A DNA stretch of 64,000 bases from an uncultured Rhodopila sp. (GTDB lineage: Bacteria; Pseudomonadota; Alphaproteobacteria; Acetobacterales; Acetobacteraceae), in assembly GCF_903915725.1 (NCBI RefSeq), contig NZ_CAIWTY010000064.1:1-64000 (forward strand), written 5' to 3'. Positions within the stretch are counted from its first letter, which is position 1. Each line of letters starts with the position of its first letter. The position numbers were made by a program, and so were the translations under genes. A model generated the notes under the pieces. That model was not told the origin of the DNA. It saw only the letters and a program-made list of their open reading frames with translations, and did not search any database. Shown in pieces: positions 23,001-51,234 of this stretch.

Positions 23001-23028
23001 GCCAGCTCGATACAGGAGAGCATTGACC

Positions 23029-25542: not shown

Positions 25543-26850
25543 TCATTCCGGATACGGCAGACGGTAGCGGTCGCGCACCGTCCCGGATTCGTATTCTCGG
25601 CGGAACACGCCGCGGTCCTGCAGGACCGGGATAACCCTGTCGACGAATTCGATGATGTCATCAGGCGCGCGCGGCGGCTGGATGGTGTAGCCGTCGACTG
25701 CCCCGTCGGCCCAGAACTCGATCAGCGCGTCGGCGATATCCTCCGGCGTGCCGACGACCAGGCGGTGATGCCCCTCCGTCCGGCGGACGACCTGACGCGC
25801 GGTCAGCTTTTCGTGCCGCAGCAGATCGACCAGGCCGAGCGTCATGCCGAGCGCGAGCAGCCGGTTCGGATCGGGCACGAACTGCTCGGGATCGAGGATC
25901 GCGTCCGGGTCGAAACGGTGCGGGTCAAAACCGTGTTCGGCGATGAAGCGCGCGATCAGCCCGTCCTCGGAGCCGGCGCCGCTGAGCAGTTCGTGCTTGC
26001 GCAGCGCCTCGGCGCGGGTGTCGGCGATGATCGGCACCAAACCCGGAATGATCCGGATGCCGGACGGGTCGCGGCCGATGGCCAGCGCGCGGTCCCGGAC
26101 GCGGCGGCCGAACTCATGCCCGGCTTCGTGCGACAGGATGTTGGCGTAGATGATCTCGCCATGGCGGGCGGCGAGGTCGATGCCCCACTCCGACGCGCCG
26201 GCCTGAGCCAGCACCGGATGGCCCTGCGGCCCGCGCGGCACGTTCAGCGGCCCCTGGACGTCGAAATGCGCGCCGTGGTGGTCGATGCGGCGCGCGCTGG
26301 AGGCGTCCCAGAACCGGTTCGGCGGGATCTCGCGCTCGCGGCGCGGATCCCAGCTTGCCCATAGCTGCTTGGCCACATCGAGGAATTCGGACGCCCTGGC
26401 GTAGCGCTCGGGGCGGGGCGGCAAATGCGCGGCGCCGAAATTGGCCGCGACGGCCTCGGTGAACGAGGCCACCGCGTTGATGATCAGCCGTCCGCCGGAG
26501 ATCAGGTCCACGGTCTGGGCGCGGCGGGCCAGGTCGTAGGGCGAGTTGTAGGTCGTGCTGAAAGTGGCAACGAAGCCGATATCCGGCACCTGCGCGGTGA
26601 TCGCCGCCGCCAGGGTCAGCGGATCGAGGGTGTGGAACGGGCGCCCGTCCGGATCGGTTACCAGCGCCGGGTGATCCGAAAAGAATACGGCGTCGAACCG
26701 GCCGCGATGGGCGATTTCCGCCAGCCCGCGGTAATAGGCGGGATCGGTGATCTCCTGCCGGTTGCCCGTGCGGTACGGCCAGGCCTTGGCGACGTAGCCG
26801 GTGGTGTTGAGGCCGACATTGAGGTTGAGTTGGCGTTGGGACTGGCTCAT
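25543..26850 (-). CDS. LLM-class flavin-dependent monooxygenase (NtaA/SnaA/DszA family)
   Basis: A 435-aa protein starting at ATG 26850 (MSQSQRQLNLNVGLN) with GAGGG about 7 nt upstream; upstream residues in the open frame are not family-like. Conserved blocks: FDAVFFSDHPAL, VDLISGGRLIINAVAS (the usual W-N-x-V-T-S is altered to I-N-A-V-A-S), PVLAQAGASEWG, GTPEDIADALIEFWADGAVDGYTIQPP. It is the most divergent NtaA-type member in the window, which suggests a different substrate. Divergent from the orphan SBP at 27019, which probably belongs to the same pathway. Confidence 0.9.
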   Translation of the reverse strand: MSQSQRQLNLNVGLNTTGYVAKAWPYRTGNRQEITDPAYYRGLAEIAHRGRFDAVFFSDHPALVTDPDGRPFHTLDPLTLAAAITAQVPDIGFVATFSTTYNSPYDLARRAQTVDLISGGRLIINAVASFTEAVAANFGAAHLPPRPERYARASEFLDVAKQLWASWDPRREREIPPNRFWDASSARRIDHHGAHFDVQGPLNVPRGPQGHPVLAQAGASEWGIDLAARHGEIIYANILSHEAGHEFGRRVRDRALAIGRDPSGIRIIPGLVPIIADTRAEALRKHELLSGAGSEDGLIARFIAEHGFDPHRFDPDAILDPEQFVPDPNRLLALGMTLGLVDLLRHEKLTARQVVRRTEGHHRLVVGTPEDIADALIEFWADGAVDGYTIQPPRAPDDIIEFVDRVIPVLQDRGVFRREYESGTVRDRYRLPYPE

Positions 26851-27018
26851 GCGGCCCTCGGGTTGGCTGGGTTGTCGGCCGCGCGATACAACGCGCCGAT
26901 TGCGGCAAAGTTGCCTATTCAACGTGGCTTGTCGATGGGTAAATCCACGTGCCACTAGCGTATGGAACGAAATCCACGCTATAGGCTGTCAGATCGCTTC
27001 GCAACCCGGGAAACAAAG

Positions 27019-28602
27019 ATGCCGCATGCTCCGTCCCGCCGAACCCTGCTGCTGTCGGGGGCGGCCGCCAGCCTGTTTCCCCCCGGCGCGAAGGCACAGC
27101 CAGCGCGGGGCGGCTCCGTCGCGATCAATATCGGCACCGAACCGCCGCTGCTGCTGCAGGTCGCGCAATCGGCAGGTGCCACCTACTATATCGGCGGCAA
27201 GATCAACGAGGGGCTGCTGACCTACGACAAGAACCTCAACCCGCTGCCGCTGCTGGCGACGGAATGGACGGTGGCGCCGGACGGGTTGCGCTACCGGTTC
27301 AGGCTGCGCGAGGGCGTGACGTGGCATGACGGCCAGAATTTCACCGCTGACGATGTTGCTTTTTCGATCCTGACGCTGAAGCAATACCACCCGCGTGGCC
27401 GGGCGACGTTTGCGAATGTGGAGCAGGCGAACGTGCTCGGCCCGCATGAGGTGGAACTGGTGCTGTCGAAGCCGGCGCCGTATCTGCTCGCCGCTTTCGC
27501 CGGCTTTGAATCGCCGATTGTGCCGAAGCATCTGTATGACGGGACCAACGTCGCGGACAATCCCCATAACGCCGCGCCCATCGGCACCGGTCCTTTCCGG
27601 TTCGTTGAATGGGCGCGCGGCAGCCATGTGCGGTTGGTGCGCAACGAAAACTACTGGGGTGCGCCGAAGCCGTATCTCGACCAGATCATCTTCCGTTTCA
27701 TCGTCGATCCCGCAGCGGCGGCGGTGGCCATAGAGAGCGGCGATGTGCAGGTTTCGGTGGCGAACCTGCCGCTGGCTGATATCGCCCGGCTGAAGGCTCA
27801 GCCGAACCTTGTCGTCTCCACCGCTCCGGTTCCGTATTCACCGACGATCGCACGGGCCGAGTTCAATCTGGAGAACCCGTATCTGGCTGATATCCGGGTC
27901 CGGCATGCGATTGCTTACGCGATCAACAAGGACTTCATCGTCAACACCGTCTATCTCGGCTATGCGACGCGGCTTGACGGGCCGATCAGCCCGGACCTTG
28001 CGGCGTTTTATGCGGCGGATGTGCCGAAATATGCGTTCAGCCCGGCCAAGGCCGAGGCGCTGCTGGACGAGGCTGGTTATGAACGCGGCCCCGACGGGTA
28101 TCGTTTCAGGCTGTTCATCGACCCGACCCAGCCCTCCGGCCCGCCGAAGCAGACGGCGGAATATTTCGCTCAGGCGCTCGGCAAGGTGGGCATCAAGGTG
28201 GAGCTACGGACGCAGGATTTCGCCGCGTTCGTGAAACGCATTTTCACGGATCGCAGCTTTGACATTGCGATCGAGGGGATGAGCAATTTCTATGACCCGA
28301 CTGTCGGCGTGCAGCGGCTGTATTGGTCGAAGACCTTCAAGCCCGGCGTTCCGTTCACCAACGGATCGAAATATCTGAGCCCCGAGGTGGATCGGCTTTT
28401 GGAGTCCGCGGCGGTGGAAATCGATCCGGCGCGTCGCCGCAAGCTGTTCGAAGCGTTCCAGACGCGGGTGGTGGAAGACCTGCCGACGCTCGACCTCGTT
28501 ACGCCATCCGTCATTACGATCTACGACAAGCGCGTCAAGAACCTGCAGGTGGGCGCCGAGCACCTGTGGAGCAATGGCGCCGATATCTACCTGGAAGAGT
28601 GA
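27019..28602 (+). CDS. Family-5 ABC transporter substrate-binding protein with Tat signal, orphan
   Basis: A 527-aa Dpp/Opp-type receptor. The start is ATG 27019 (MPHAPSRRTLLLSGAAAS), giving a clear Tat signal; the open frame from 26962 adds 19 residues before it. Family blocks: TWHDGQNFTADDVAFSIL, HPRGRATFANV, GTGPFRFVEWARGSH, DPTVGVQRLYWSKTFKPG. It is a paralogue of the proteins at 7502 and 52623. No permease is adjacent; the next gene, 10 nt away, encodes a DszC/SfnB-like oxygenase, so uptake and first oxidation of one substrate seem coupled. Confidence 0.92.
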   Translation: MPHAPSRRTLLLSGAAASLFPPGAKAQPARGGSVAINIGTEPPLLLQVAQSAGATYYIGGKINEGLLTYDKNLNPLPLLATEWTVAPDGLRYRFRLREGVTWHDGQNFTADDVAFSILTLKQYHPRGRATFANVEQANVLGPHEVELVLSKPAPYLLAAFAGFESPIVPKHLYDGTNVADNPHNAAPIGTGPFRFVEWARGSHVRLVRNENYWGAPKPYLDQIIFRFIVDPAAAAVAIESGDVQVSVANLPLADIARLKAQPNLVVSTAPVPYSPTIARAEFNLENPYLADIRVRHAIAYAINKDFIVNTVYLGYATRLDGPISPDLAAFYAADVPKYAFSPAKAEALLDEAGYERGPDGYRFRLFIDPTQPSGPPKQTAEYFAQALGKVGIKVELRTQDFAAFVKRIFTDRSFDIAIEGMSNFYDPTVGVQRLYWSKTFKPGVPFTNGSKYLSPEVDRLLESAAVEIDPARRRKLFEAFQTRVVEDLPTLDLVTPSVITIYDKRVKNLQVGAEHLWSNGADIYLEE

Positions 28603-28612
28603 GTTCTTTGAC

Positions 28613-29821
28613 ATGACCGTTGCAGCACCCGTCACGCGCGACGCCTTGCTGGCCCGCGTGCCCGGCTTCGTTGCCGAAATCGCCGATGGCGCGGCGCGGC
28701 GCGAGCAGGAGCGGGAATTGCCGTTCGCCGCCTTCGCCCGCCTTCGGGAGCTGGGCCTCGGCACGATCCGCGTCCCCGCTTCGCTTGGCGGCCCCGGCGG
28801 TTCGGCCTCCGACGCTATCGGCTTGATCGCCGATATCGCGGTGGGCGATCCGAATGTGGCGCACGCGCTGCGGCCGCATTTCAACTATGTCGAGGCGGCC
28901 GTCCTGACGCCCGAGGCGCACCGCGACGCCGCCGCGATCCCGCGCATCCTGTCGGGCAAGCTGTTCGGCGGCGCGCATACCGAACAGGGCACCGCCCGCC
29001 CCGGGCAGGTGACTTTGCGGCTGAGCCGGCAGGGCGGCGGGTTCCGGTTGAATGGCCGCAAATGGTATGCGACCGGCACGGCGTTCGCCGATTATGCCTC
29101 GTTCAGCGCGGTGGACGATGACGGGCAGCCGACGGGCGTGCTGATCCCGACGGATCGGGCGGGGCTGAGCATCCTCGACGACTGGGACGGCATGGGGCAG
29201 CGCCTGACCGCGAGCGGCGGCGTGCTGTTCGAAAATGTGGAGGTGCTGCCGGAGGAGATCGTGCGGCGGCGGCTGGAGACGCCGGTGGGGCGGCATTGCT
29301 CGACCTTGCGGCAGTTGCATCTGGCGGCCTGCGCGGCCGGGGTGCTGCGCAATGTGCTCGGCGACGGGCTGGATTATGTGCGCCGGGAGGCGCGTGCGGC
29401 GGCGCACAGCACCGCGGAGACGGCGGGCGGCGATCCGTTCGTGCAGCAGACGATTGGCGAGATTGCGGCGGTGTCGTTCGCGGTGGATGCGGCTGTTGCG
29501 GCGGCGGCGCGGCGGCTGGATGACTCGGCGGCGGCGTTCGCGGGCGGCGATGCGGCGGCGATCGAGGCGGCGCTGATCGAGAGTTCGCTAGCCACGGCGC
29601 GGGTGCAGTTGCTGCTCGGGCAGCTTGGCACGCGCACGACGGAGCGGCTGTTCGACCTCGGCGGCGGGTCCACGACCGCCCGCGCGCTGAATTTCGATCG
29701 GCATTGGCGGAATGTGCGCACGGTGCTGAGCCATAATCCGCTGGCGCATAAGGCGCGGGTTGTGGGGGATTATTTGATCAATGGGACGACGACGCATTTG
29801 CGGGAGGGGAAGGTGTTTTGA
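28613..29821 (+). CDS. Acyl-CoA-dehydrogenase-fold flavin monooxygenase, DszC/SfnB-like
   Basis: A 402-aa protein; the start at 28613 is 10 nt after the SBP stop. The superfamily fold is shown by the N-terminal ELPFAAFARLRELGLGTIRVPASLGG and FRLNGRKWYATGTAFADYASF. The C-terminal HWRNVRTVLSHNPLAHKAR with VGDYLINGT is characteristic of DszC/SfnB-type oxygenases rather than fatty-acyl dehydrogenases. These use FMNH2 and O2 to oxidise sulfides to sulfoxides/sulfones, or act in dimethylsulfone use. It is transcribed with the orphan SBP. Substrate unknown. Confidence 0.85.
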   Translation: MTVAAPVTRDALLARVPGFVAEIADGAARREQERELPFAAFARLRELGLGTIRVPASLGGPGGSASDAIGLIADIAVGDPNVAHALRPHFNYVEAAVLTPEAHRDAAAIPRILSGKLFGGAHTEQGTARPGQVTLRLSRQGGGFRLNGRKWYATGTAFADYASFSAVDDDGQPTGVLIPTDRAGLSILDDWDGMGQRLTASGGVLFENVEVLPEEIVRRRLETPVGRHCSTLRQLHLAACAAGVLRNVLGDGLDYVRREARAAAHSTAETAGGDPFVQQTIGEIAAVSFAVDAAVAAAARRLDDSAAAFAGGDAAAIEAALIESSLATARVQLLLGQLGTRTTERLFDLGGGSTTARALNFDRHWRNVRTVLSHNPLAHKARVVGDYLINGTTTHLREGKVF

Positions 29822-35049: not shown

Positions 35050-36069
35050 TCACTCCGCCACCGCCTCCTGCCGACTATCAATCGGCCGCCGATCCACCCA
35101 GGCATCGACATCGAAATCGTTCTCCAAGAACCCCCAAGCCAGCAGAAAATCCTTGAAATGCGCAATCGCCGCGACCTGCCCCGGGTCCAGCGACAACCCC
35201 AGCTTCAGATGCACATCGGCACCGTAGGCGGCCCCGGCAGCCTCCTCGCTCACCCCCACCTCGCGCGCGACAATCCGCCGCGTCTCCTCCGGATTGGCCC
35301 GCGCCCAGGCCGCCGCCCGGTCCACCTGAGCCACAAGCACGGCGGCCAGATCGGGACGTTCCTCGATGAACGAGGCATCCACCGTCAGCGTCCGAGGCGT
35401 GCCGTTGTTGATGCGGATGTTCGGGTCCGGATGGTGCCCGGTCTCCACCAGCACCCGCGCGCCCAGCAGGTTCGCGATCGCCACACCCTCGCCGCCCTTG
35501 ACGAACACCGCGTCCACCCGTCCGGCGGCCAGCGCCGCGATCTCCGCCCAATACGGCTGCCGCCGGCTCAGCCCGTGCAAACCAGCATCTCCCCGCTCCG
35601 TAATGATCGGCTTCGCAACAACAACGTCCACCAACGTAACGTCCTCCGCCGTGCCACCGATGACAGTCAGTGCCGAAACGATCCCCTTCAGCGCCGTGGC
35701 GCGGTGGAAATCGACAATCGGCCCCGCCCGCCGCGGCACGCCGATACGCGCACCCTTCAGGTCCCGCAGCGGCGAGTCCGGCAGCGTAATCACCGCCTGG
35801 AACTCGTCCACCCGGGTCAAGCCAATAAGCCGGGTCTCGCGTCCGTCGGAGCGGGCCCGGATCGCCGGGATATTGCCGCCCTGGCGAAACGACCACGGCA
35901 GCGTGTGGGTGAAATGGCTCTCCCGCACGGAGGCATCGCGCGACTCCCCGATCGACTTCACCGCAATGCCATGCGCCTCGAACGCGGCATCGATCCAGCC
36001 GAAGCGCGCGGCGATGCCAAGCGGGGAGGGGACAGGGCAGCGCGTGTACCAAACGGTGTCATACGGCAT
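35050..36069 (-). CDS. DszB-like sulfinate desulfinase (SBP-fold)
   Basis: A 339-aa protein that by fold could pass for an SsuA/NrtA binding protein, but it has no signal peptide and carries the DszB active site. The YTRCPVP segment (Cys11) matches YSNCPVP of DszB (Cys27). HFTH (His52) and FRQGGNIPA (Arg62, Gly65) reproduce the DszB His60-Arg70-Gly73 set with identical spacing (10 and 3). DszB hydrolyses an aryl sulfinate to a phenol plus sulfite. The start at 36069 follows AGGAGG with good spacing and overlaps the upstream DszC-like gene by 11 nt, so the two are translationally coupled. Confidence 0.82.
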   Translation of the reverse strand: MPYDTVWYTRCPVPSPLGIAARFGWIDAAFEAHGIAVKSIGESRDASVRESHFTHTLPWSFRQGGNIPAIRARSDGRETRLIGLTRVDEFQAVITLPDSPLRDLKGARIGVPRRAGPIVDFHRATALKGIVSALTVIGGTAEDVTLVDVVVAKPIITERGDAGLHGLSRRQPYWAEIAALAAGRVDAVFVKGGEGVAIANLLGARVLVETGHHPDPNIRINNGTPRTLTVDASFIEERPDLAAVLVAQVDRAAAWARANPEETRRIVAREVGVSEEAAGAAYGADVHLKLGLSLDPGQVAAIAHFKDFLLAWGFLENDFDVDAWVDRRPIDSRQEAVAE

Positions 36070-37249
36070 CGGAACCTCCTGTCTGCGCAAGAACTGCCCT
36101 GGCCGAGGCGGCCCGGACCAAAAACCCGTTCGGAGCATGGGTGCGCCCGCAGAGCACGTTGCGATGGTGGCGCTCCAGCGGATGGTCGCGGGAAATGCCG
36201 GTATTGCCGGCGATCCGCAGCGCGATGTCCACCACGCGGATGGCGTTTTCCAGCACCACATGGCGGATCTGCGCAGGTGCGTTGCCGCCGTCCCGCCCGT
36301 CATCCGCATCGCGCGCCACGGACTCCAGCAGCCGATCCCCGGCCTCCAGCAGGATTTCGATTTCGCCGAGCTGGTCCTGAATCAGCGGCAGCGAAGCCAG
36401 CGGCGCCCGCAGCGATCCCGGCGTAAACCGCGCAGCGAAAGCCAGCACCTCGTCGCGCGCCGCCCGGGCGATGCCGTGGTAGACCGAGCCAATTAGCACC
36501 ATGAACCAAGCCCATTGCTGCGGATCGAAGCGGCGGCCCGCGCTGGCGGGTGCCAGGTCGAGCACCCAGCCCTCCGGCACCAAGACATCCTCGAAGACGA
36601 TGTCGTGGCTGTTGGTGGCGCGCATGCCGGTGGTGTTCCACCCTGCCTCGATGCGCGTCCCCGGCGACTTGTCGCCGATGACGAACGACCCGAGGCGCGG
36701 TTCGGCTTCGTCGGTGACCGCCAGGACCAGGTACCAGTGCAGCAACGCGCCCCCGGTCGCGTAGCGCTTGTGCCCGGTGACCCGCCAGCCCTCGGGCGTT
36801 TTCCGCGCCAGCGTGCGCGGCAGGGTGCCGTAGGAGGGCGATCCCGCTTCCGGTTCGACCTGCAACGCGTTGATCAGGGCCGGCCCCTGCCGCCCCGACG
36901 CAAGAACCGCCCGGGCGAGGTCCACCGGCCAGCGCCTCCCCAGCCTGATCGAGGCCAGATTAACGTAGTGCATCGACAGGATCAGTGCGGTGGAAGGCTC
37001 GCCACGGGCGATCTCCGCGATGATCTTTTGCGCCACGACCAAAGCAGCGCCAGCCACGCCATCGGCCGCAGCGGAAACGAGGTTCACCAGACCTTCGGCA
37101 TGCAGTGCGGCGAAATTGGCCGCCGGATACGCGCCGGTGGCGTCCAACTCGCCCGCGGTCGCCGCGAACCCGTCGGCGAGGCGCCGGGCGCGGGCGAGCC
37201 AATCGCCGGGTTCCCCCGCGGGGATTGCAAGCCGGGCCGAGGCGCTCAT
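36059..37249 (-). CDS. Acyl-CoA-dehydrogenase-fold flavoprotein, DszC-like
   Basis: A 396-aa protein starting at ATG 37249 (MSASARLAIPAG); a longer frame reaches 37342 but lacks family similarity. Family blocks: EIARGEPSTALILSMHYVNLASI, GWRVTGHKRYATGGALLHWYLVLAV, GWNTTGMRATNSHDIVFEDV and the C-terminal LERHHRNVLCGRTHAPNGFLV. The HHRNV motif corresponds to the HWRNV region of the DszC/SfnB-like protein at 28613. Its pairing with a DszB-like gene strongly suggests flavin-dependent S-oxygenation upstream of desulfination. Confidence 0.85.
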   Translation of the reverse strand: MSASARLAIPAGEPGDWLARARRLADGFAATAGELDATGAYPAANFAALHAEGLVNLVSAAADGVAGAALVVAQKIIAEIARGEPSTALILSMHYVNLASIRLGRRWPVDLARAVLASGRQGPALINALQVEPEAGSPSYGTLPRTLARKTPEGWRVTGHKRYATGGALLHWYLVLAVTDEAEPRLGSFVIGDKSPGTRIEAGWNTTGMRATNSHDIVFEDVLVPEGWVLDLAPASAGRRFDPQQWAWFMVLIGSVYHGIARAARDEVLAFAARFTPGSLRAPLASLPLIQDQLGEIEILLEAGDRLLESVARDADDGRDGGNAPAQIRHVVLENAIRVVDIALRIAGNTGISRDHPLERHHRNVLCGRTHAPNGFLVRAASARAVLAQTGGSDAV

Positions 37250-37510: not shown

Positions 37511-38527
37511 ATGAAACTCGGCCTGTTTCTGTTCCCCGAATCGCGCGATCCGGCGGCGGACGACCGCGTCATCGACGAGTCGGTCCAGGAAGCCAGGCTC
37601 GCCGAGGCGGAAGGCATGGATGCGGTGTTCCTCGTCGAGCACCATTTCGACGGCAATTGCGCCTATGTCGACCCGGTGACGTTCGCCGCCGCCCTCGCCA
37701 TCGCCACCAGCCGCATCTCCATCGGCTTTGCCGTGCTGAAGACATCGCTCTATCACCCGATCCGCATGGCCGAGCAGATCTCGCTGGTCGATAACCTGAG
37801 TAAAGGTCGTCTGATCGTCGGCCTCGGCCGCGGCAGCCTGGTGAATTTGCACGAATACAGCGGATACCAGATCGACCCCGACAGCGCGCAGGAACGCTTC
37901 GAGGAGATCGAGGCAATCCTGCTGAAGTGCTGGAACAATGAACAGGTCCGCCACACCGGGAAATACTGGAACTTCGAAATCCCGATGCTGCGGCCGCGGC
38001 CCTATACCAAGCCGTATCCGCCAATCCTGCGCAGCGTGGCGTCCGAGGCGTCGCTCGCCGCCCAGGCCCGCCAGGGGCGCCCCGTGCTGATGGCAGCGGC
38101 GACCGCGGCCGGAGCTGCGCGGAACGTCGAGATCTATCGCAACGCCGCGCGCGAAGCGGGTTTCTCCGACACCGCGATCGAGCACGCCCTCTCGCAGTGC
38201 TGGGTCGCCCGCACCGTCATCCTGGCCCCAACGGACCTCGAAGCGATCGAGATCGGCTTGCCGTATTTCCGTCAGATGCAGACGTATCGCGCCGCCCAGA
38301 GCACCGCTTTCGAGGCGATGGTCGCCAAGGCGAACAACCAGCCGGGCCTGCCGGTGCTCTGCGGATCGCCCGAAACCGTGCTGGAGGATTTCACCAGCCT
38401 GGCGAAGACCGGCGTCGGCGGCGTCATCATCCGCTTCCGCTCCGGCCCGATGCCGGCCGCGTTCTCCTCCCGCGCGCTGAAACTGTTCATGCAGGAGATC
38501 GCACCGCAGGTCCGCGCGGCGTCCTGA
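37511..38527 (+). CDS. LLM-class flavin-dependent oxidoreductase, luciferase-alpha-like (short type)
   Basis: A 338-aa TIM-barrel flavoprotein, shorter than the NtaA types in this window. The start is ATG 37511 with AGGAGAAG upstream. It opens MKLGLFLFPESRD, typical of bacterial-luciferase-like enzymes. It has VFLVEHHFDG (the E-H-H of the family), SLVDNLSKGRLIVGLGRGSLVNLHEYSGY and the late GSPETVLEDFTSLAKTGVGG. It probably oxidises the substrate delivered by the SsuCBA-like importer that follows, or acts with the divergent DszC/DszB-like pair. Confidence 0.9.
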   Translation: MKLGLFLFPESRDPAADDRVIDESVQEARLAEAEGMDAVFLVEHHFDGNCAYVDPVTFAAALAIATSRISIGFAVLKTSLYHPIRMAEQISLVDNLSKGRLIVGLGRGSLVNLHEYSGYQIDPDSAQERFEEIEAILLKCWNNEQVRHTGKYWNFEIPMLRPRPYTKPYPPILRSVASEASLAAQARQGRPVLMAAATAAGAARNVEIYRNAAREAGFSDTAIEHALSQCWVARTVILAPTDLEAIEIGLPYFRQMQTYRAAQSTAFEAMVAKANNQPGLPVLCGSPETVLEDFTSLAKTGVGGVIIRFRSGPMPAAFSSRALKLFMQEIAPQVRAAS

Positions 38528-38567: not shown

Positions 38568-39473
38568 GTGATGTCCCCAATATACGGTCCAACCTGCTAT
38601 TCCAGCCATGAGGTCGCATTGGGCAGCGCTCTGACATCAACCTTGCCGGCAAGCGCGGCATCCGAACCGGAGGCGGTGGTTCCGCCGCAACACGCCGCCA
38701 ATCCCCGGATGGTCGCGCTGCTCTCCTGGCTCGCCCCGGTCCTGCTGCTGCTGGTCTGGGAGGCCGCGGCGCAACTCGGCCGCATCCCGCCGCATCTGCT
38801 GCCCGCCCCGAGCAAGGTCGCGCGCACCGCGTTCCACCTGGCGGTGCATGGCAGCCTGCTGCACGACCTCGGGATCAGCCTGCTGCGCGCGGCGGCCGGT
38901 TTCGCCATCGGCGGCTCCATCGGCTTCGCGCTCGGCACTGCCGTCGGCTTCTCCCGCATTGCCGAGGCGCTGATCGACCGCTCGGTGCAGATGATCCGCG
39001 CCATCCCGTTTCTCGCACTGCTGCCGCTGGTGATCGTCTGGCTCGGCGTCGGCGAGGCGGAAAAGATCTTCCTCGTGGCGCTCGGCGTCACCTTCCCGAT
39101 CTACATCAACACCACGCTGGGGATCAGGCAGGTCGATCCCAAGCTGCTGGAGCTGGGCCGCGTGCAGGGGTTGGGCACCGCGGCGATGATCCGCCGCATC
39201 GTCCTGCCCGGCGCGCTGCCCTCGGTGCTGACCGGGGTCCGTTACGCCCTCGCCACGGCCTGGCTGGCCCTTGTCGTTGCTGAAACGATTGGCGCGGACG
39301 CGGGCATCGGATTCCTGGCCATGGATGCGCGGGAGTTTCTCCGCACCGACGTGATCTTCCTGACGATCCTGATCTACGCCCTGATTGGCGTTTCCGCCGA
39401 CTGGGTCGCCCGCCGGCTGGAGCGCCGTCTGTTGGCGTGGCACCCGAATTTCGCCAGCCCGGGCGGCCGATGA
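38568..39473 (+). CDS. ABC transporter permease, SsuC/TauC-like
   Basis: About 301 aa from GTG 38568, but the start is unsure: ATG 38571 or TTG 38619 (after ATGAGGT) are alternatives, and the first 30 residues look non-conserved. The core begins LSWLAPVLLLLVWEAAAQLGRIPPHLLPAPSKV, the usual first span of sulfonate permeases. It continues with MIRAIPFLALLPLVIVWLGVGEAEKI and ARVQG-type coupling loop LLELGRVQGLGTAAMIRRIVLPGALPS. It forms the channel for an aliphatic sulfonate- or taurine-type substrate with the next two genes. Confidence 0.88.
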   Translation: MMSPIYGPTCYSSHEVALGSALTSTLPASAASEPEAVVPPQHAANPRMVALLSWLAPVLLLLVWEAAAQLGRIPPHLLPAPSKVARTAFHLAVHGSLLHDLGISLLRAAAGFAIGGSIGFALGTAVGFSRIAEALIDRSVQMIRAIPFLALLPLVIVWLGVGEAEKIFLVALGVTFPIYINTTLGIRQVDPKLLELGRVQGLGTAAMIRRIVLPGALPSVLTGVRYALATAWLALVVAETIGADAGIGFLAMDAREFLRTDVIFLTILIYALIGVSADWVARRLERRLLAWHPNFASPGGR

Positions 39474-40159
39474 GCGCCCTTCCTCCCGCTGTCAGAGTGG
39501 TCAACCTGGTCCGCCGCTACGGCGGGCGCACCGTGCTGAACGATTTGAACCTGCGCATCGAGCGCGGCGAGTTCGTCGTTCTGCTGGGCGAAAGCGGCTG
39601 CGGCAAGACCACGCTGCTGCGCGCTTTGGCCGGGCTGGATCATGTCCAGGGCGGCCGGATCGAAGCGCCCCGCCGCCCGGCGATGGTGTTCCAGGAGCAT
39701 CGCCTGCTGCCATGGGATCCACTGTGGCGCAACGTGGCACTCGGGCTTCAGGCGGCCGACGCTCGCGCCAGGGCCGAGGCTGCGTTGGCCGAAGTCGGCC
39801 TCGGCGGCCGGCTCGACGACTGGCCGCGCAACCTGTCGGGCGGCCAGGCGCAACGCGTCGCCCTGGCCCGCGCCCTGGTGCAGAAGCCCGAACTGCTGCT
39901 GCTGGACGAGCCATTCGCCGCGCTCGACGCGCTGACCCGCATCCGCATGCACGCGCTGGTGAAACAGCTTGTCGCCCGCCATCGCCCCGCCGTGCTGCTG
40001 GTCACGCATGACGTGGACGAGGCGATCGCCCTGGCGGACCGCATCCTGGTGATGCGAGAGGGCGCCATCGCGGCGGGGTATTTTGTTTCGGATGCGCGCG
40101 ACCCGCTCGCGCTGCGCCAGTCGCTGCTGGCCGAACTTGGCGTCACCACCTTTGCCTGA
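39470..40159 (+). CDS. ABC transporter ATPase, SsuB-like
   Basis: A 229-aa nitrate/sulfonate-type ATPase in an ATGA overlap with the permease. Walker A GESGCGKT (about residues 40-47), VFQEHRLLPWDPLWRNV, LSGGQAQRVALARAL, Walker B LLLLDEPFAALD and LVTHDVDEA are intact. The short length and the RLLPW sequence are typical of SsuB. It energises SsuC. Confidence 0.93.
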   Translation: MSALPPAVRVVNLVRRYGGRTVLNDLNLRIERGEFVVLLGESGCGKTTLLRALAGLDHVQGGRIEAPRRPAMVFQEHRLLPWDPLWRNVALGLQAADARARAEAALAEVGLGGRLDDWPRNLSGGQAQRVALARALVQKPELLLLDEPFAALDALTRIRMHALVKQLVARHRPAVLLVTHDVDEAIALADRILVMREGAIAAGYFVSDARDPLALRQSLLAELGVTTFA

Positions 40160-40172
40160 CGAGGACATTACG

Positions 40173-41135
40173 ATGGCTCCCATTCCGCGCCGCCGTTTGC
40201 TGCAATATTCGTTCCCCGCGCTGGCCGCGTCCGGGCGCGCCCGGGGCCGGACGACCGACACGGTGCGCCTGACCTGGGGCTACGGCGGCCTGACGCTGAT
40301 CGCCAAGGAGCGCGGCGTGTTTGAGCAGCACCTGGCGCAGCAGGGCATCAAGGTGGAGTGGCTCGGACCGTTCCCCAACCACGCGCCCACGCTTCAGGCG
40401 GTGGCCGGCGGGAGCGCGGATTTCAGTTTCGGTGGCAGCACAACCCCGGCGCTGGCCGCGCTGATCGCCGGTGCGCCGTTGGTGTTTGCTGAATTTGTCA
40501 ACTATGAGCCGCGGACGACAGCGATCATCGCGCTGGATGGATCCGGCATCAATACGGTCGAGGACCTGGCCGGGAAATCGGTGGCGGTCAACCGCTCCGG
40601 CCTGGGCGAATTCCTGCTGGTGGCGGCGCTGGAGAAACACAAGGTCGACCGGTCGAAAGTCCGCTTCGTCTATCTCAATCCGCCGGACGCGGCGCCCGCT
40701 TTGGGTTCGGGCAAGGTGGATGCCTGGGCGATGTGGAGCCCGGGTGTCGACATCGCCCGCCGGCAATACAACGCGCACGACATTTTCGTCGAGCAACGCG
40801 ACCTGGATTTTCAGATCGACTTCACATCCTATCTGGTGCCGCGCAGCTTTGCCCGGGACAATCCCGATCTTGTCCGGGCGGTGATTGCCGCGCTCCGGCA
40901 GGAAGCCGCGTGGTCCGACGAACACCCGCTGGACTCCGAGATCATAGCCCAGCGCAAGGCCAACTACAGCGACGAAATCCGCGACTACTTCGTGACCCTG
41001 CACCGGCGGTACACGTTCTATGAACCGAACGACAAGGCGTTCGTCGCCCGGCTGCAATCGGCGGCCGACTGGCTGACGGAGCGGAAGGTGCTTCCGGAGC
41101 AGGTGACGGTCGCCGAGTATCTCGCACCGGCTTGA
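40173..41135 (+). CDS. ABC transporter substrate-binding protein, SsuA-like (aliphatic sulfonate type)
   Basis: A 320-aa binding protein. The start ATG 40173 follows GACGAGGA. The N-terminus PRRRLLQYSFPALAAS looks like a short Tat-type signal. The mature part has WGYGGLTLIAKERGVFE, DFSFGGSTTPALAALIAGAPLV, DLAGKSVAVNRSGLGEFLLVAAL and ALGSGKVDAWAMWSPGVDIA, all typical of SsuA. It lies 13 nt after the ATPase gene, completing a C-B-A ordered importer. Unlike the protein at 35050 it lacks the DszB cysteine motif. Confidence 0.92.
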   Translation: MAPIPRRRLLQYSFPALAASGRARGRTTDTVRLTWGYGGLTLIAKERGVFEQHLAQQGIKVEWLGPFPNHAPTLQAVAGGSADFSFGGSTTPALAALIAGAPLVFAEFVNYEPRTTAIIALDGSGINTVEDLAGKSVAVNRSGLGEFLLVAALEKHKVDRSKVRFVYLNPPDAAPALGSGKVDAWAMWSPGVDIARRQYNAHDIFVEQRDLDFQIDFTSYLVPRSFARDNPDLVRAVIAALRQEAAWSDEHPLDSEIIAQRKANYSDEIRDYFVTLHRRYTFYEPNDKAFVARLQSAADWLTERKVLPEQVTVAEYLAPA

Positions 41136-41224
41136 CGCCGATCGGGTGCGCGGCACCGGTTCGGGATCTTTGCCCCGCCGCCCGCGGACCCTAATTCCAC
41201 GTCCTTTCATGTCACTTTCCTTAT

Positions 41225-41353: not shown

Positions 41354-42697
41354 ATGAGCACGCCGGGAAAGCTTCACCTCAACATCAACATTCTCAGTTC
41401 GGGCTTTCACGGCGCCTCGTGGCGATCAGCCACCGGCGTTCCCGACGCGTTCATTTCCGTCGATCACTACGTCAGGACCGCGAAAATCGCCGAGCGGGGC
41501 GCGTTCGACGCCGTGTTTCTCGCCGACACGCCGTCGGTGACGGATCAGCCCGGTTACCGGCCGTTCCTGGCGCTGGAACCCACCATCGTGCTCGCCACCA
41601 TCGCCGCTCACACCACGCATATCGGCCTGATCGGCACCGCATCCTCGACTTTCAACGACCCGTATAATCTTGCCCGGCGCTTCGCCTCGCTCGACCTGGC
41701 CAGCCATGGCCGCGTCGGCTGGAACGTGGTGACCACCGCCGATGGCGGTGCCGCAAAGAATTTCGGCCTCGATACTGTCGTCGGCCACGCCGATCGGCAT
41801 GAGCGGGCGAGCGAATTTACCCGGGTGGTGAAGGCGCTGTGGGACAGTTGGGAAGACGGCGCCCTGATCGCCGACAAATCGACCGGCCGTTTTCTCGATC
41901 TCCATCGGCTGCACGCCATCGACCATGCCGGCAAGCATTACCGGGTGCGCGGCCCGCTCAACGTGCCGGCATCACCGCGCCAGGGGCGGCCGGTGTTGAT
42001 CCAGGCCGGCGGTTCGGGTGATGGCAGAAATCTCGCGGCCGAGCACGCGGAGGCGATTTTCTCCGTCGCCCACACCAAGGAGGACGGCATCGCCTTCGCC
42101 GCCGACGTGCGCGCCCGTGCCGCCCGCTTCGGCCGCGGGCCGGATGACATCGTCTTCCTGCCTGGCCTCGCCACGATCCTCGGGGCCACCGAGGCGGACG
42201 CGAAGCGGCGCGAGGAAGAGTTGTGGGATTTGCTGCCGATCGACTACGCGCTCTCGCGCCTGGCCGGCACGCTGCAGATCGATCGGGAGCGGCTGGAACT
42301 GGATCAGCCCTTGCCGGACGACATCGCGATTCCGGTTGACGGCATGCAGACTTTCTCGAAAGCGAGCCTGGATACGGCGCGCCGCGAACGGCTGACCGTG
42401 CGCCAGTTGCTGCGCAAACTCGGCGGCAGCACCGGCCATCGGCTGATCGTCGGCACGCCGGAACAGATCGCCGATGACATTGCGGAATGGTTCGCCGCCG
42501 GCGCCGCCGACGGGTTCAACCTGATGCCGGACGTGCTGCCCGACGGCCTCGAAACGTTCGTCGACCACGTGGTGCCGCTGCTGCGCCGCAAGGGGATTTT
42601 CCGCGAAGCCTACGAGGCGGCGACGTTGCGGGAGCATTTCGGCCTGGCCCGCCCGGTCAACCAGTTCTCGGCCGCGCGCGCCGCCGCCGCTGAATAG
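41354..42697 (+). CDS. LLM-class flavin-dependent monooxygenase (NtaA/SnaA/DszA family)
   Basis: A 447-aa enzyme starting MSTPGKLHLNINILSSG. It has FDAVFLADTPSV, GRVGWNVVTTADGGAAKNFG, KALWDSWEDGALIADKSTG, PVLIQAGGSGDG and GTPEQIADDIAEWFAAGAADGFNLMPDVLPDGLETF. It is the nearest paralogue of the truncated gene at the left edge, so the two may share a substrate. It is the first gene of a six-gene operon with an SBP, two permeases, a fused ATPase and another LLM. FMNH2 must be supplied by a reductase encoded elsewhere. Confidence 0.93.
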   Translation: MSTPGKLHLNINILSSGFHGASWRSATGVPDAFISVDHYVRTAKIAERGAFDAVFLADTPSVTDQPGYRPFLALEPTIVLATIAAHTTHIGLIGTASSTFNDPYNLARRFASLDLASHGRVGWNVVTTADGGAAKNFGLDTVVGHADRHERASEFTRVVKALWDSWEDGALIADKSTGRFLDLHRLHAIDHAGKHYRVRGPLNVPASPRQGRPVLIQAGGSGDGRNLAAEHAEAIFSVAHTKEDGIAFAADVRARAARFGRGPDDIVFLPGLATILGATEADAKRREEELWDLLPIDYALSRLAGTLQIDRERLELDQPLPDDIAIPVDGMQTFSKASLDTARRERLTVRQLLRKLGGSTGHRLIVGTPEQIADDIAEWFAAGAADGFNLMPDVLPDGLETFVDHVVPLLRRKGIFREAYEAATLREHFGLARPVNQFSAARAAAAE

Positions 42698-42707
42698 GAG
42701 TTTGCGC

Positions 42708-44321
42708 ATGACCGGAATTGGCTCAAAAACGATACTGGGTCTCGCGGCGGCCGCGGCGCTCAGCCTGGGCACCGCCCGGGCGGAACCACCGCATGGCGGC
42801 ATCATTCGCTACGGCCACGAGCAGGAGCCGCCCTGCCTGTATGCCGGCTGGGTGCAGGCCGGCTACATTCAGCGCCAATACGCCGACAATCTGGTCGCCC
42901 GCGACCACGACGGCCGGATCGTCCCGTGGCTCGCGACCGAATGGACCGTTTCGCCTGACAACAAGACCTACATCTTCAAGATCAAGCCGGACGTGAAGTT
43001 CACCGACGGCACCGTGCTCGATGCCGATGCCATCGTCTACAACTTCAATCACTGGTTTTCCGACGATCCCGACAAGATCAACCGCAATGCCAAGCTGTAT
43101 GTGTATGAATATATCAGCTCGGTCACCGCATCCGATAAGCTGACCCTGAAGATCGAACTCAGCCGCCCGTATCAGCCGCTGCTGACCGTTCTGAGCACGT
43201 ATTTCTTCGGCATCCTCTCGCCCACCGCGCTGGACAAGGGCCCGCAGGCGGTGTGCGAAAAGCCGGTGGGGTCCGGCCCGTTCTACGTCGAGCAATGGAA
43301 CCGCGGTCAAAATGTTATCCTGAAGCGCAACCCGAACTACAATTCGGCACCGGCCACCGCGCATCACCAGGGTCCGGCTTATGTGGACGGCATCGTCTGG
43401 AAGTTCCTGAAGGACGATACGGTGCGCTACGGCTCCCTGGTTTCCGGCGGATCGGACGCGATCTACGACATTCCCGCTGTGGACTGGGACGAGGCCAGGT
43501 CGCGCTACAGTGTTATCCAGGACATCACCGGCGGCACGCCGACGCGCCTGCAGCTCAACACCGCCTTCGCTCCGTTCGACGACGTCAGGGTGCGCCAGGC
43601 TTTTGCGTATGTTTCCGACAGGCGCAAGGCGGTGGACGTCTCGTTCCACGGCTCAACCCCCTATAACGGCAACGGGGCGCTCAGCCTCTCGACGCCGGAG
43701 GCGCTGAAGGACCTGGCTGCGAGCTATCCGTATGATCCGGCTGCCGCGAACGGCCTGCTGGATCAGGCGGGCTGGACCGGACGCACCGGCGACGGCATCC
43801 GCACCAAGGGCGGCCAGCCGCTCATGGTGCGCATACTCTATGCGGCCGGCGCGCTGATCAATTCGGACGGAATCCAGGTGCTGCAAATCCTGCAGGACCA
43901 GGCGCGGGACGCCGGCTTCGACGTGGTGCTGAAACCCATCCCGCAGGCCGACTGGTTCGCCGGCAAGGGCCGCGGCCCCACCGATTACGACGCCCAGCCG
44001 GCCTACTGGGTCGCCTCATCAGCCGAAATCCTGAAGATTTCCTGGCGGCCGGATCAGCGCGGCGTGGTCAACCCGAACAATGCCTCGCGCTTCCAGCCGC
44101 CGGAACTGTGGGCGAAGATCGAGGAGGCCGATCGGACGTTCGACGATGCAAGGCGGCTGGCGCTGTACCAGGGCGCCCAGCGCATCATCGTCGATAATGC
44201 CGCGGTTGTCGGCCTGTTCCCGCTGACCGTCTCGATCGCCAGCCAGCCGAAGCTGAAGGACATCTGGATTTCCAGCCCGGTCAGTGAGCCGGTGTTCCAC
44301 GACGCGTATTTCGATCGATGA
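42708..44321 (+). CDS. Family-5 ABC transporter substrate-binding protein (Sec signal)
   Basis: A 537-aa peptide-type receptor. The start ATG 42708 follows AATAGGAG. The signal MTGIGSKTILGLAAAAALSLGTARA has no twin arginine, unlike most binding proteins here, so it uses Sec. The mature part has GGIIRYGHEQEPPCLYAG, ATEWTVSPDNKTYIFKIKPDVKFTDG and GSGPFYVEQWNRGQNVILKRNPNYN. It belongs to a third SBP subgroup in the window. Its stop overlaps the permease start (ATGA). Confidence 0.93.
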   Translation: MTGIGSKTILGLAAAAALSLGTARAEPPHGGIIRYGHEQEPPCLYAGWVQAGYIQRQYADNLVARDHDGRIVPWLATEWTVSPDNKTYIFKIKPDVKFTDGTVLDADAIVYNFNHWFSDDPDKINRNAKLYVYEYISSVTASDKLTLKIELSRPYQPLLTVLSTYFFGILSPTALDKGPQAVCEKPVGSGPFYVEQWNRGQNVILKRNPNYNSAPATAHHQGPAYVDGIVWKFLKDDTVRYGSLVSGGSDAIYDIPAVDWDEARSRYSVIQDITGGTPTRLQLNTAFAPFDDVRVRQAFAYVSDRRKAVDVSFHGSTPYNGNGALSLSTPEALKDLAASYPYDPAAANGLLDQAGWTGRTGDGIRTKGGQPLMVRILYAAGALINSDGIQVLQILQDQARDAGFDVVLKPIPQADWFAGKGRGPTDYDAQPAYWVASSAEILKISWRPDQRGVVNPNNASRFQPPELWAKIEEADRTFDDARRLALYQGAQRIIVDNAAVVGLFPLTVSIASQPKLKDIWISSPVSEPVFHDAYFDR

Positions 44322-45301
44322 GCGAGCCCGCCATTACAGCCAGGCAAGCACCGCCATGGCGCCGCCGAACAGCCGCCGTGCTGCGGCGCCTGCTCGGCGC
44401 GGTGGCCGTGTTCTGGGCGGTGGCGACGTTCACTTTCTGCGTCCAGTCGCTGCTGCCCGGCGACCGGGCCGAGATGATGCTGAACGTGGCGTCCGGTACA
44501 TTGGTGCAGGCGTCGAAGGCGGAGCTGGCGGCGGTCAACGCCCGGTACGGCTTCGACCAGCCGCTTTCCGTGCAATATTTGCGCTACATCGAAGCGTTGC
44601 CACGCGGCGACTTCGGCGTTTCGTACCAGACGCACCGTCCGGTGCGGGACATGATCGCCGAACAGATCCGGCCGACAATCCTGCTCACGGCGTCCGCCCT
44701 CGTGCTGGCCTGGGTGATCGCGATTGTGGTGACAGTAACGACCGCCGGCCGCCCCGGACGCCTGTCGCGCTTCATCGGCGGCGTCCAGGTCGCCACCGCC
44801 GTCGCCCCGCCCTACTGGATCGGCACCATCCTGCTCGTGGTTTTCGCGGTCCGGCTGCGCCTGTTCCCGGTCGAGGGCGACAACGGGCTGCCGGGGCTGG
44901 TCCTGCCGGCGGCGGCGCTGGCGATTCCGCTCTCCGGCTTCCTCGGCCAGGTGATTCGCGAGGAATTCTCCCGTGTCCTCGAACAGCCCTTCGTCACCAC
45001 GGCCCGCATGCGCGGCATGGGCGACACCGGCGTGCGGCTGCGGCACGTGCTGCGCCACGCGGCGCTGCCGGGCGTGACCCTGTCCGGCTGGGCCGTCGGC
45101 GCGCTGTTCTCGGGCGCCGCGGTGATCGAGACCGTGTTCGCCCGGCCGGGTATCGGCGGCCTGCTGGTGGCGGCAACGTCGTCCCGCGACATTCCCCTCG
45201 TCACCGGGATCATCGTGGCTTCGGCGGGGATTTACATCCTGGCCAACCTGCTCGTCGATCTCGCCTATCCCATCATTGATCCAAGGTTGAGGGCGCGATG
45301 A
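44318..45301 (+). CDS. Dipeptide/oligopeptide-type ABC permease, DppB-like
   Basis: A 327-aa permease in an ATGA overlap with the SBP. After a basic N-terminus it has the anchor FWAVATFTFCVQSLLPGDRAEMM. It carries LNARYGFDQPLSVQYLRY-type DppB features, REEFSRVLEQPFVTTARMRGMGDTGVRLRHVLRHAALPG as coupling loop, and ends DLAYPIIDPRLRAR. It forms the channel with the next gene, whose ATG overlaps its stop. Confidence 0.93.
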   Translation: MSEPAITARQAPPWRRRTAAVLRRLLGAVAVFWAVATFTFCVQSLLPGDRAEMMLNVASGTLVQASKAELAAVNARYGFDQPLSVQYLRYIEALPRGDFGVSYQTHRPVRDMIAEQIRPTILLTASALVLAWVIAIVVTVTTAGRPGRLSRFIGGVQVATAVAPPYWIGTILLVVFAVRLRLFPVEGDNGLPGLVLPAAALAIPLSGFLGQVIREEFSRVLEQPFVTTARMRGMGDTGVRLRHVLRHAALPGVTLSGWAVGALFSGAAVIETVFARPGIGGLLVAATSSRDIPLVTGIIVASAGIYILANLLVDLAYPIIDPRLRAR

Positions 45302-46182
45302 GCAGTACAGACCAGGCCCTGGTTTTTCGCGCCGTGGAGCGGCGGCGCAGCGCCGTCGCGGCGTTTGTCCGCACGCTGCCGCCGGGAGTGGCCGTCGCGG
45401 CGCTGGTGATCGTCTTGTTCGTCGCGGCGGCGGCAGCACCCGGCCATCTGCAAACCCACAACCCGTTTCGCACCGATCTGTATGCGACGCTCCAGCCGCC
45501 GTCATTGGCGCATCTGTTCGGAACCGACCAGTCGGGCCGCGACCTGTTCTCGCGGGTCGTCGAGGGCACGCGTCAGTCGCTGACCATCGGCATCGGCGCC
45601 ACCGGCCTCAGCCTGTCCATTGCCCTGCTGCTCGGGGTAACCGCCGGTCTCGCGGGCGGCGCGGTGGACGCCGCGATCAGCCGGTTTCTGGAGGTGCTGT
45701 TCGCCTTTCCGAACCTGTTCCTGGCGCTGCTGTTCGTCACCGTGTTCGCGGCGACCCCCGCCACGCTGGTGATCGCCGTGGGGATCGGCACCGCGCCCGG
45801 CTACGCGCGCATGATTCGCGGCCAGTTTCTCTCGGTCAAGCGTGCCGGATACGTGGAGGCGGCCCGCACGCTCGGGCATTCCTATGGCCGCGTCGTGCGC
45901 CAGCACATTTTTCCCAATGCGATGCGCCCGCTGGTGGTGATGATCACGCTCGGTCTCGGGCAGTCGATCGTCTGGGCGTCCGGCCTGGCCTTTCTCGGCC
46001 TCGGCGTCGCGCCGCCCTCGCCCGAATGGGGTGCGCTGCTCGATGCGGGCCGCCACTACGTGACCCGCGCCTGGTGGCTGGAAGTGATGCCCGGGCTGGC
46101 CATTATCGCCTTTGCGCTATCCGCCACCGTCGTCAGCCGCCACCTGCAGGATCGCCTGGAAGGCCGCGTCCATGCCGGCTGA
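45298..46182 (+). CDS. Dipeptide/oligopeptide-type ABC permease, DppC-like
   Basis: A 294-aa permease. Signature blocks are LAHLFGTDQSGRDLFSRVVEGTRQSLTIGI, the coupling loop SVKRAGYVEAARTLGHSYGRVVRQHIFPNAMRP and FLGLGVAPPSPEWGALLDAGR. Six spans are expected. The start overlaps the DppB-like stop and the end overlaps the ATPase start by 11 nt, showing tight translational coupling. Confidence 0.93.
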   Translation: MSSTDQALVFRAVERRRSAVAAFVRTLPPGVAVAALVIVLFVAAAAAPGHLQTHNPFRTDLYATLQPPSLAHLFGTDQSGRDLFSRVVEGTRQSLTIGIGATGLSLSIALLLGVTAGLAGGAVDAAISRFLEVLFAFPNLFLALLFVTVFAATPATLVIAVGIGTAPGYARMIRGQFLSVKRAGYVEAARTLGHSYGRVVRQHIFPNAMRPLVVMITLGLGQSIVWASGLAFLGLGVAPPSPEWGALLDAGRHYVTRAWWLEVMPGLAIIAFALSATVVSRHLQDRLEGRVHAG

Positions 46183-47821: not shown

Positions 47822-47840
47822 TGCTTTGAAGGATCGTAAC

Positions 47841-50455: not shown

Positions 50456-51231
50456 CCGAGGCTGCGACCCTGCGCCGCATAGCACTGGGCGTCGCTTCGG
50501 TTTCGGGCCTGCTGCTGGCGTGGGAACTGGCGGGACGGTTCGGTCTGGTGGATCCGCTGTTCCTGCCGGCGCCGAGCGAGATACTGGATACCGCTGTTGA
50601 TCTCGTCCGAAACGGATACCGCGGATCGCCGTTATGGATGCATGTCGGAATCAGCGTCGGCCGGGCGATGCTTGCGTTCGTCCTCGCCGTCATTGCCGGC
50701 ATTCCCCTTGGCGTAATGATCGGCCTGTCGCCAATCGTTGCCGGACTGATTGATCCGTTCGTGCAATTCCTGCGGCCGTTGCCGAAACTCGCGCTAATTC
50801 CCCTGGTCATCCTGTGGTTCGGCATCGGCGAATTTTCCAAAGTGTTCCTGATTTTCCTGTCCGCGTCGCTCAGCATCGTCGTGGGTTCGGCCGCCGCGGT
50901 TGCCAATGTGCGGCGCCAGCAGCTTCGGGCGGGCAGGGCGCTCGGGGCACATGGTTTCGCCCTGTTCCGTCACGTGATGCTGCCGCTGATGGCGCCGGAG
51001 CTGTTCGTGACCGTGCGCCTGTCGCTGGGCATAGGCTGGACCACGTTGATTGCCGCCGAAATGATCGCCGCGGACTCCGGATTGGGCTGGATGTCGGTGA
51101 ACGCCGCGGCCTATCTGCGCACCGATATCGTCATGCTGGGCATCGTATTGCTCGGACTGACCGGCTACGCGCTCGACCTCGCGATCGTCGGGTTGCAGCG
51201 CTGGATCACGCCCTGGGCCGGACGGGGCTGA
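50452..51231 (+). CDS. ABC transporter permease, TauC/SsuC-like, apparent CTG start
   Basis: About 259 aa. The first conventional start is GTG 50548, but the conserved first membrane span (LGVASVSGLLLAWELAGRFG) is encoded upstream of it. The frame is closed by TGA at 50386-50388 and holds no ATG, GTG or TTG before 50548. CTG at 50452 forms a CTGA overlap with the stop of the receptor gene and is the likely start. The rest is typical: FLRPLPKLALIPLVILWFGIGEFSKV and RAGRALGAHGFALFRHVMLPLMAPELF coupling loop. It forms the channel of the importer. Confidence 0.85.
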   Translation: MTEAATLRRIALGVASVSGLLLAWELAGRFGLVDPLFLPAPSEILDTAVDLVRNGYRGSPLWMHVGISVGRAMLAFVLAVIAGIPLGVMIGLSPIVAGLIDPFVQFLRPLPKLALIPLVILWFGIGEFSKVFLIFLSASLSIVVGSAAAVANVRRQQLRAGRALGAHGFALFRHVMLPLMAPELFVTVRLSLGIGWTTLIAAEMIAADSGLGWMSVNAAAYLRTDIVMLGIVLLGLTGYALDLAIVGLQRWITPWAGRG

Positions 51232-51234
51232 CCC

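Follow-up and report, generated by a model that had tools for sequence, protein, structure and literature searches.

A DszB-like protein of an uncultured Rhodopila sp. is a probable sulfinate desulfinase of a proteobacterial subfamily labelled as transporter binding proteins

The closest described relative of the protein reported here is DszB, the desulfinase of the dszABC system, which is best known from actinobacteria (PMC11852219) and whose DszB step has been described as the slow one of microbial fuel desulfurization (PMC4839641, PMC12168087). According to the accounts in PMC6100217 and PMC12168087, Cys27, His60 and Arg70 of DszB take part in catalysis or sulfinate binding, and an RXGG motif is found in homologues. 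Another system, the bdsABC operon of Gordonia terrae C-6, is described in PMC3868597 as encoding a desulfinase, a reduced flavin mononucleotide (FMNH2) monooxygenase and an SsuD-like protein, as converting benzothiophene and as having little similarity to dsz; the locus numbers that follow belong to Ssu-type transporter genes. Here we analysed a 64,000-nucleotide stretch of DNA from an uncultured Rhodopila sp. (contig NZ_CAIWTY010000064.1, positions 1 to 64,000), hereafter the window, in which a gene at 35050-36069 encodes a DszB-like protein of 339 amino acids (aa), the window protein. To our knowledge, few DszB relatives have been characterized.

An earlier reading of the DNA letters (the original prediction) had proposed that this protein, which would be annotated as an SsuA-type receptor, is a DszB-type desulfinase in a desulfurization route of a Gram-negative bacterium. 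Sequence, fold, site conservation, the missing signal peptide and operon context support the proposed identity, and we consider the window protein likely to be a sulfinate desulfinase of the DszB type that works in the cytosol, rather than a transport receptor, with catalysis assigned by homology. A Gram-negative setting would not be new, since PMC3868597 cites a report of desulfurization by Sinorhizobium sp. KT55 and PMC4839641 describes it for Chelatococcus, where the evidence for DszB consists of peptides matching it.

The window protein and its likeness to DszB

The dszB-like gene and the gene coupled to it, which encodes a flavoprotein of the acyl-CoA dehydrogenase (ACAD) fold, are laid out as follows.

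35050..36069, minus strand: DszB-type sulfinate desulfinase-like protein, 339 aa, with putative catalytic Cys11, His52, Arg62 and Gly64-Gly65
36075..36079, minus strand: ribosome-binding site GGAGG, 5 nt upstream of the dszB-like ATG, read from the sequence
36059..37249, minus strand: ACAD-fold flavoprotein, 396 aa, likely a flavin monooxygenase, overlapping the dszB-like gene by 11 nt and carrying His371-Ala-Pro

The frame starts with ATG, and the ribosome-binding site at 5 nt supports this short start and speaks against a signal peptide further upstream. Hydropathy analysis detected no hydrophobic signal segment in the product, so that both start site and hydropathy bear out the original description of a 339-aa protein lacking a signal peptide, and the export signal expected of an SsuA-type receptor is absent. 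An N-terminal extension carrying a signal peptide, in a longer frame starting at 36309, was considered and rejected: it overlaps the flavoprotein gene, and reading its sequence revealed no signal. The dszB-like frame overlaps the 3' end of the flavoprotein frame, in agreement with the translational coupling proposed earlier.

The window protein has Cys11 in a CPVP context followed by His52-x9-Arg62-x2-Gly65, and DszB (chain 2de2) has Cys27 in CPVP followed by His60-x9-Arg70-x2-Gly73. Alignment of the two proteins placed Cys11, His52, Arg62 and Gly65 opposite Cys27, His60, Arg70 and Gly73, all in register, and in the C27S mutant of DszB (chain 2de3) a Ser stands opposite Cys11. The DszB-like spacing noticed originally is thus exact. 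A chance occurrence of the motif was ruled out by a match to DszB over the whole protein (residues 4-325, E 5.2e-18). Indeed, DszB was the only significant match of the window protein in a phmmer search of the PDB (E 5.2e-18 and 1.7e-16), and no binding protein matched at E values up to 1. Further Foldseek analysis of the PDB with an AlphaFold2 model of the window protein (46 alignment rows; mean predicted local distance difference test score, pLDDT, 87.8; predicted template modelling score, pTM, 0.88) ranked DszB chains 2de2/2de3 first to third (E 2.7e-19 to 6.7e-19; TM scores 0.71-0.75), followed by SsuA (E 5.0e-14). The window protein is therefore a member of the DszB family by full-length sequence similarity, by its catalytic residues and RXGG motif and by its nearest solved fold, with conserved site residues, no signal peptide and a recurrent gene association; Cys11, His52 and Arg62 would presumably meet in one pocket.

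A subfamily with a conserved site and no signal peptide

A hidden Markov model (HMM) built with DszB included separated 116 member frames, all above 130 bits, from 13 binding-protein controls at 65 bits or less. Removal of two duplicates left 114 unique rows, and exclusion of a fragment lying off the site (L097) left 113, which include the window protein and one annotated DszB. Cys was kept in 112 of these 113 rows, His in 111, and Arg and both Gly in all 113; this conservation is partly built in, because 80 of the 114 rows were retrieved with search patterns that span the Cys or the Arg-x-Gly-Gly stretch. Among the 26 rows not chosen by motif, again with the window protein and known DszB, 25 cover the site, and these keep Cys in 24 cases, His in 23 and Arg-x-Gly-Gly in 25. 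All site residues are kept in eight second copies, and none of the 13 controls has Cys, His or Arg at the three positions.

Start sites could be picked, on the basis of a ribosome-binding site and the motif, for 111 of the 116 frames, and the median distance from start to Cys is 13 residues. None of the 111 members has a Kyte-Doolittle stretch above 1.8 in its first 35 residues (highest value 1.57), whereas 9 of the 13 controls exceed this value and two of the other four look mis-started or fused. The window protein is accordingly expected, from its sequence, to be cytosolic.

In a tree of 49 rows below 80% identity, all 13 controls fall on one side of a single branch (support 94/99), although the program flags long control branches and four controls fill less than half of the columns. 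The window protein belongs to a clade of 19 rows (100/99) that is separate from true DszB, whose two rows form a pair of their own on a long branch, so that it does not group as a DszB orthologue. A relative encoded on a plasmid of Rhizobium sp. ACO-34A (L106, 7980-9062), where its neighbours are annotated as hypothetical, groups neither with true DszB nor with the window's clade, its placement being unresolved, and lacks the Lys191, Pro225 and Arg226 that mark the subfamily (see below).

Relatives were matched by tblastn in 86 of 72,556 plasmid records, mostly of rhizobia. The 60 listed matches are 54-58% identical to the window protein, and those of them that carry a label are called "ABC transporter substrate-binding protein" (ABC, ATP-binding cassette); more distant plasmid members bear other labels, for example "hypothetical protein" and "monooxygenase". 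A scan of genome contigs yielded at least 567 relatives, of which the best 80 were kept; these come, by record title, from alpha- and betaproteobacterial genera and are led by proteins of Bradyrhizobium SSUT77 (73% identity) and BTAi1 (71%). Some genomes carry three copies. A member at E 1e-20 or better occurs in 4 of 385 genomes drawn evenly from the window's class, its own included, and 6 of the 98 nearest-kin genomes, again with its own, have any match at 1e-3, which makes the family patchy; the only close match among these kin beyond the window's own is a fragment, in genome G024. By sequence, these proteins make up a proteobacterial DszB subfamily, called ABC transporter substrate-binding proteins in those listed plasmid records that have a label. 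No description of this subfamily was found in the open-access literature, an absence that is weak evidence.

Gene neighbourhoods, partner genes and competing explanations

We compared the surroundings of 95 dszB-like genes at 85 loci, a set weighted to Rhizobiaceae in which 80 loci came from the motif-based scan. Neighbours were labelled by tblastn matches (E 1e-8) to chosen proteins, and unlabelled genes may intervene. For 56 of the 95 copies, the same strand carries an ACAD-type flavoprotein gene no more than 300 bp away (47 downstream, 9 upstream), and for two an SfnB-like gene. A luciferase-like monooxygenase (LLM) gene stands directly upstream in 21 copies, 33 have a peptide-type binding-protein gene on their upstream side, and the labelled order LLM, dszB-like, ACAD, as in dszA-B-C, occurs in 20. 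Within 1.5 kb, an ACAD-type gene was found at 51 of the 85 dszB-like loci and at none of 14 binding-protein loci. Two of the cassette LLM proteins score best on SfnG, a dimethylsulfone monooxygenase (203 and 186 bits; cut-off 383), and in Bradyrhizobium SSUT77 and BTAi1 the dszB-like gene is followed by that of an SfnB/DszC-like enzyme (SfnB 260 and 264 bits; cut-off 431).

On pSymA of Sinorhizobium meliloti 1021 (L009, 12691-16020), a single ACAD-type flavoprotein gene lies between two dszB-like genes, and the same triple is present in Devosia, Neorhizobium, Chelatococcus and Ensifer. This arrangement suggests two paralogues with different substrates.

Within the window, the gene pair is accompanied by the following genes, assigned from Pfam and NCBIfam scans of chosen window genes and from similarity.

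25543..26955, minus strand: NtaA/DmoA-family LLM monooxygenase (383 bits)
26962..28602, plus strand: family-5 (peptide-type) solute-binding protein, homologues of which adjoin dszB-like genes in other genomes
28574..29821, plus strand: SfnB/MsuC/DszC-like monooxygenase (MsuC 6u76, E 1.9e-33; DszC 3x0x, E 9.4e-30)
37511..38527, plus strand: LLM flavin monooxygenase, divergent from the gene pair
38568..39473, plus strand: SsuC-type permease (Pfam/NCBIfam)
39437..40159, plus strand: SsuB-type ATPase (Pfam/NCBIfam)
40173..41135, plus strand: SsuA-type binding protein, the importer's own receptor (SsuA_fam 169.3 bits, cut-off 163.5; longer frame 40083-41135)
41354..42697, plus strand: NtaA/DmoA/DszA-family LLM monooxygenase (TIGR03860, 504 bits, cut-off 280)
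42702..47821, plus strand: second family-5 binding protein, two permease-like genes and a fused peptide-type ATPase
47826..49223, plus strand: NtaA/DmoA-family LLM monooxygenase (490 bits)
49433..52077, plus strand: second taurine/sulfonate-type ABC importer (binding protein, permease, ATPase)

The divergent LLM oxygenase and SsuCBA importer of the original prediction are thus in place, at 37511-38527 and 38568-41135. The protein of 41354-42697 matched DszA (5tlc) in the PDB at E 1.9e-85, rank 6 of 12, and the permeases of 42702-47821 are assigned by similarity to annotated permeases in L012 only. The window's contig showed no flavin reductase of PF01613 or PF03358; elsewhere in the genome these families have three and four loci, respectively, one with an in-frame stop. 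A promoter/terminator scan of 37200-37560 found nothing.

The coupled flavoprotein had been called DszC-like. Its coupling stands, but it is not specifically DszC-like: in PDB sequences it matches 5z8t (E 6.5e-55), an entry described as a flavin-containing monooxygenase, and 5gj7 (6.9e-55), which also lead by fold, and only more weakly MsuC (5.7e-13), a thermophilic DszC (5xb8, 3.1e-12) and DszC 3x0x (9.2e-9), while the 50 best folds shown include no DszC. On the DszC model NF043015 it reaches 48.5 bits against a cut-off of 850, and the protein of 28574-29821, which by these comparisons is closer to DszC, reaches 122.8 bits, also below the cut-off. The flavoprotein carries the His-Ala-Pro motif of its group, and His371-Ala-Pro stands where dehydrogenases of the medium-chain acyl-CoA type have their catalytic Glu loop, which favours a monooxygenase.

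The sister genome G024 lacks window stretch 35360-38284 at the matching place. What it retains there of the dszB-like gene is the C-terminal part, and of the LLM gene the end, beside an SsuCBA stretch of 97.5% identity. It also lacks 41163-49318, including the DszA-like LLM gene, and keeps the SfnB-like region at 97%. Joint loss of the DszB-like, ACAD and LLM genes fits one function, and several separate losses are equally possible. Stretches 29982-34229 and 21840-25467 are likewise absent at the matching place in G024. The former (plus strand) encodes, inside the sulfur island, a 1415-aa protein matching models of the antiviral STAND NTPase Avs2 (PADLOC, 883 bits), and the latter (plus strand) a TorC-like pentahaem cytochrome and an S/N-oxide reductase of the TorA/BisC family (bisC_fam 1079 bits, over the cut-off). 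A short phosphoribosyltransferase-like frame, recognized by reading the sequence, adjoins the dszB-like gene at 34612-34998 (minus strand), and G024 has a longer copy.

Among the alternatives, we consider it unlikely that the window protein is a DszB-fold enzyme that catalyses another reaction, such as breaking the C-S bond of a sulfonate or of a carboxylated sulfur compound, or one closer to Thi5-type chemistry. This would suit the subfamily-specific residues Lys191 (111 of 114 rows), Arg219 (112), Asn221 (111), Pro225 (112) and Arg226 (112), in whose places DszB has Trp, a gap, Arg, Ala and Ser, as well as the appearance of Thi5 among the fold matches and the amidases, M20 peptidases and aldo-keto reductases also encoded beside dszB-like genes. 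However, the residues to which DszB catalysis is ascribed recur at exact spacing, Thi5 has no sequence match to the window protein by phmmer against the PDB, and the partners belong to sulfone/sulfur monooxygenase families (SfnG-like, SfnB-like, DszA-like).

Slightly less credit still is due to an ordinary SsuA/NMT1-type ligand-binding protein that has lost its signal peptide and, without being an enzyme, serves for sensing or scavenging in the cytosol. The Pfam NMT1 model matches the window protein (27 bits, cut-off 20.5), the fold is common to SsuA, those of the listed plasmid relatives that have a label are named as binding proteins, and the SsuCBA importer adjoins in the window; but that importer already has its own SsuA, and the Cys, His and Arg kept in the family are absent from all 13 controls. 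SsuA_fam (TIGR01728), the only NCBIfam match of the window protein, gives 75.9 bits, far under its cut-off of 163.5, and the annotated DszB of plasmid pMyong1 is likewise below (65.4). Moreover, Ssu-type permeases occur in the fetched flanks of only 5 of the 85 loci, so that most loci have no matching permease nearby. These five include both closest relatives, L014 and L015 (Bradyrhizobium SSUT77 and BTAi1), and for the window's own branch the argument from a missing permease therefore fails.

It is very improbable that the coupled flavoprotein is itself the sulfite releaser, in the manner of 3-sulfinopropionyl-CoA desulfinase, with a minor part left to the DszB-like protein, for although its best NCBIfam score is on the 3-sulfinopropanoyl-CoA desulfinase model and the solved enzyme (5af7/5ahs) is among its sequence and fold matches, its 108 bits are less than one fifth of the cut-off (600) and close to its SfnB score (102), three homologues at other loci score SfnB or acryloyl-CoA reductase first, and 5z8t and 5gj7 are its nearest solved structures.

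Besides the permeases of the window's own branch, several observations weigh against a sulfinate desulfinase. Identity to DszB in the fold alignment is low (26-27%), and no measured enzyme activity was found in the literature for any subfamily member. The Burkholderia cenocepacia copy L108 (5230-7962) has Ser for Cys and Ile for His, and the Sphingobium copy L103 (5345-6520) has Asp for His, with the rest conserved in each; these relatives may be non-catalytic, and some members may thus lack catalysis. The neighbourhood set was selected largely by motif, and a gene of the ACAD or SfnB type is lacking within 300 bp of 37 of its 95 copies. An ACAD gene lies within 1.5 kb at none of six DszB-like loci from a separate genome search and at three of seven further plasmid loci, one of which is a true dszABC.

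Proposed pathway and comparison with known systems

For a desulfinase, we infer catalysis, substrate and pathway order from homology and gene content. If the window protein works as DszB does, the sulfinate would be held by Arg62 and the Gly64-Gly65 turn, His52 would swing in as the two lobes close, and Cys11 would give a proton, or act as a nucleophile, releasing sulfite. The ABC importers would take up an organosulfur compound, which the ACAD-type flavoprotein, the SfnB/DszC-like enzyme and the LLM enzymes would oxidize to a sulfone and open to a sulfinate, from which the desulfinase would free sulfite as a sulfur source. Such a route from sulfide through sulfone and sulfinate to sulfite is possible with the genes present.

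Because Lys191, Arg219, Asn221, Pro225 and Arg226 are kept in the subfamily and absent in DszB, the substrate of DszB is probably not that of the subfamily, and a more cationic pocket accepting a different substrate seems probable. DszB protonates an aromatic carbon according to the computed mechanism in PMC6100217, which makes an aryl or other sp2 sulfinate likelier than an alkyl one and argues against the possibly non-aromatic substrate of the original prediction, for which no evidence emerged. Our likeliest guess is an aryl or other sp2 sulfinate with an extra anionic group.

The interest lies in the family rather than in the single window gene. We tentatively suggest, as an idea somewhat short of even chances, that a large set of proteobacterial "substrate-binding proteins" forms a second, unrecognized desulfinase branch. 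Such a branch would serve an organosulfur-salvage route widespread among plant-associated and soil bacteria, its substrates would be anionic sulfinates of the aryl or heteroaryl type, and the desulfinase still missing from Gram-negative benzothiophene desulfurizers such as Sinorhizobium sp. KT55 might belong to it. If so, a wide and diverse set of natural DszB relatives, among them the two copies on pSymA of the model symbiont S. meliloti 1021, would offer new enzymes to test, the freeing of sulfur from organic matter by soil bacteria would be partly explained, and a recurrent annotation error would be corrected. It could also be tested whether these genes underlie the benzothiophene route reported from Gram-negative bacteria.

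Compared with known systems, the window protein shares with DszB the fold, a similar length, the Cys-His-Arg-x-Gly-Gly set with identical His-Arg-Gly spacing and a gene overlapping that of a flavin monooxygenase. It differs in its identity of only about 26%, in lacking the DszB insertions seen in the alignment, in the five subfamily residues, in its proteobacterial host and in its monooxygenase partners. The dszABC genes of Mycobacterium plasmid pMyong1 (L102) have the order LLM, desulfinase, ACAD-fold enzyme shared by the 20 subfamily copies mentioned above, whereas in the window the dszB-like gene follows the coupled ACAD-type gene, the LLM gene is divergent and the coupled partner is far under the DszC cut-off. 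SsuA and TauA share the periplasmic-binding-protein fold and Pfam NMT1 with the window protein, but have a signal peptide and, as judged from the 13 controls, no Cys/His/Arg set, and the window protein falls under the SsuA_fam cut-off. Finally, bdsABC of G. terrae C-6, as described in PMC3868597, resembles the window in combining a desulfinase, an FMNH2 monooxygenase, an SsuD-like gene and nearby Ssu-type transporter genes; it is actinobacterial, and the two are likened by the kinds of genes and not by sequence.

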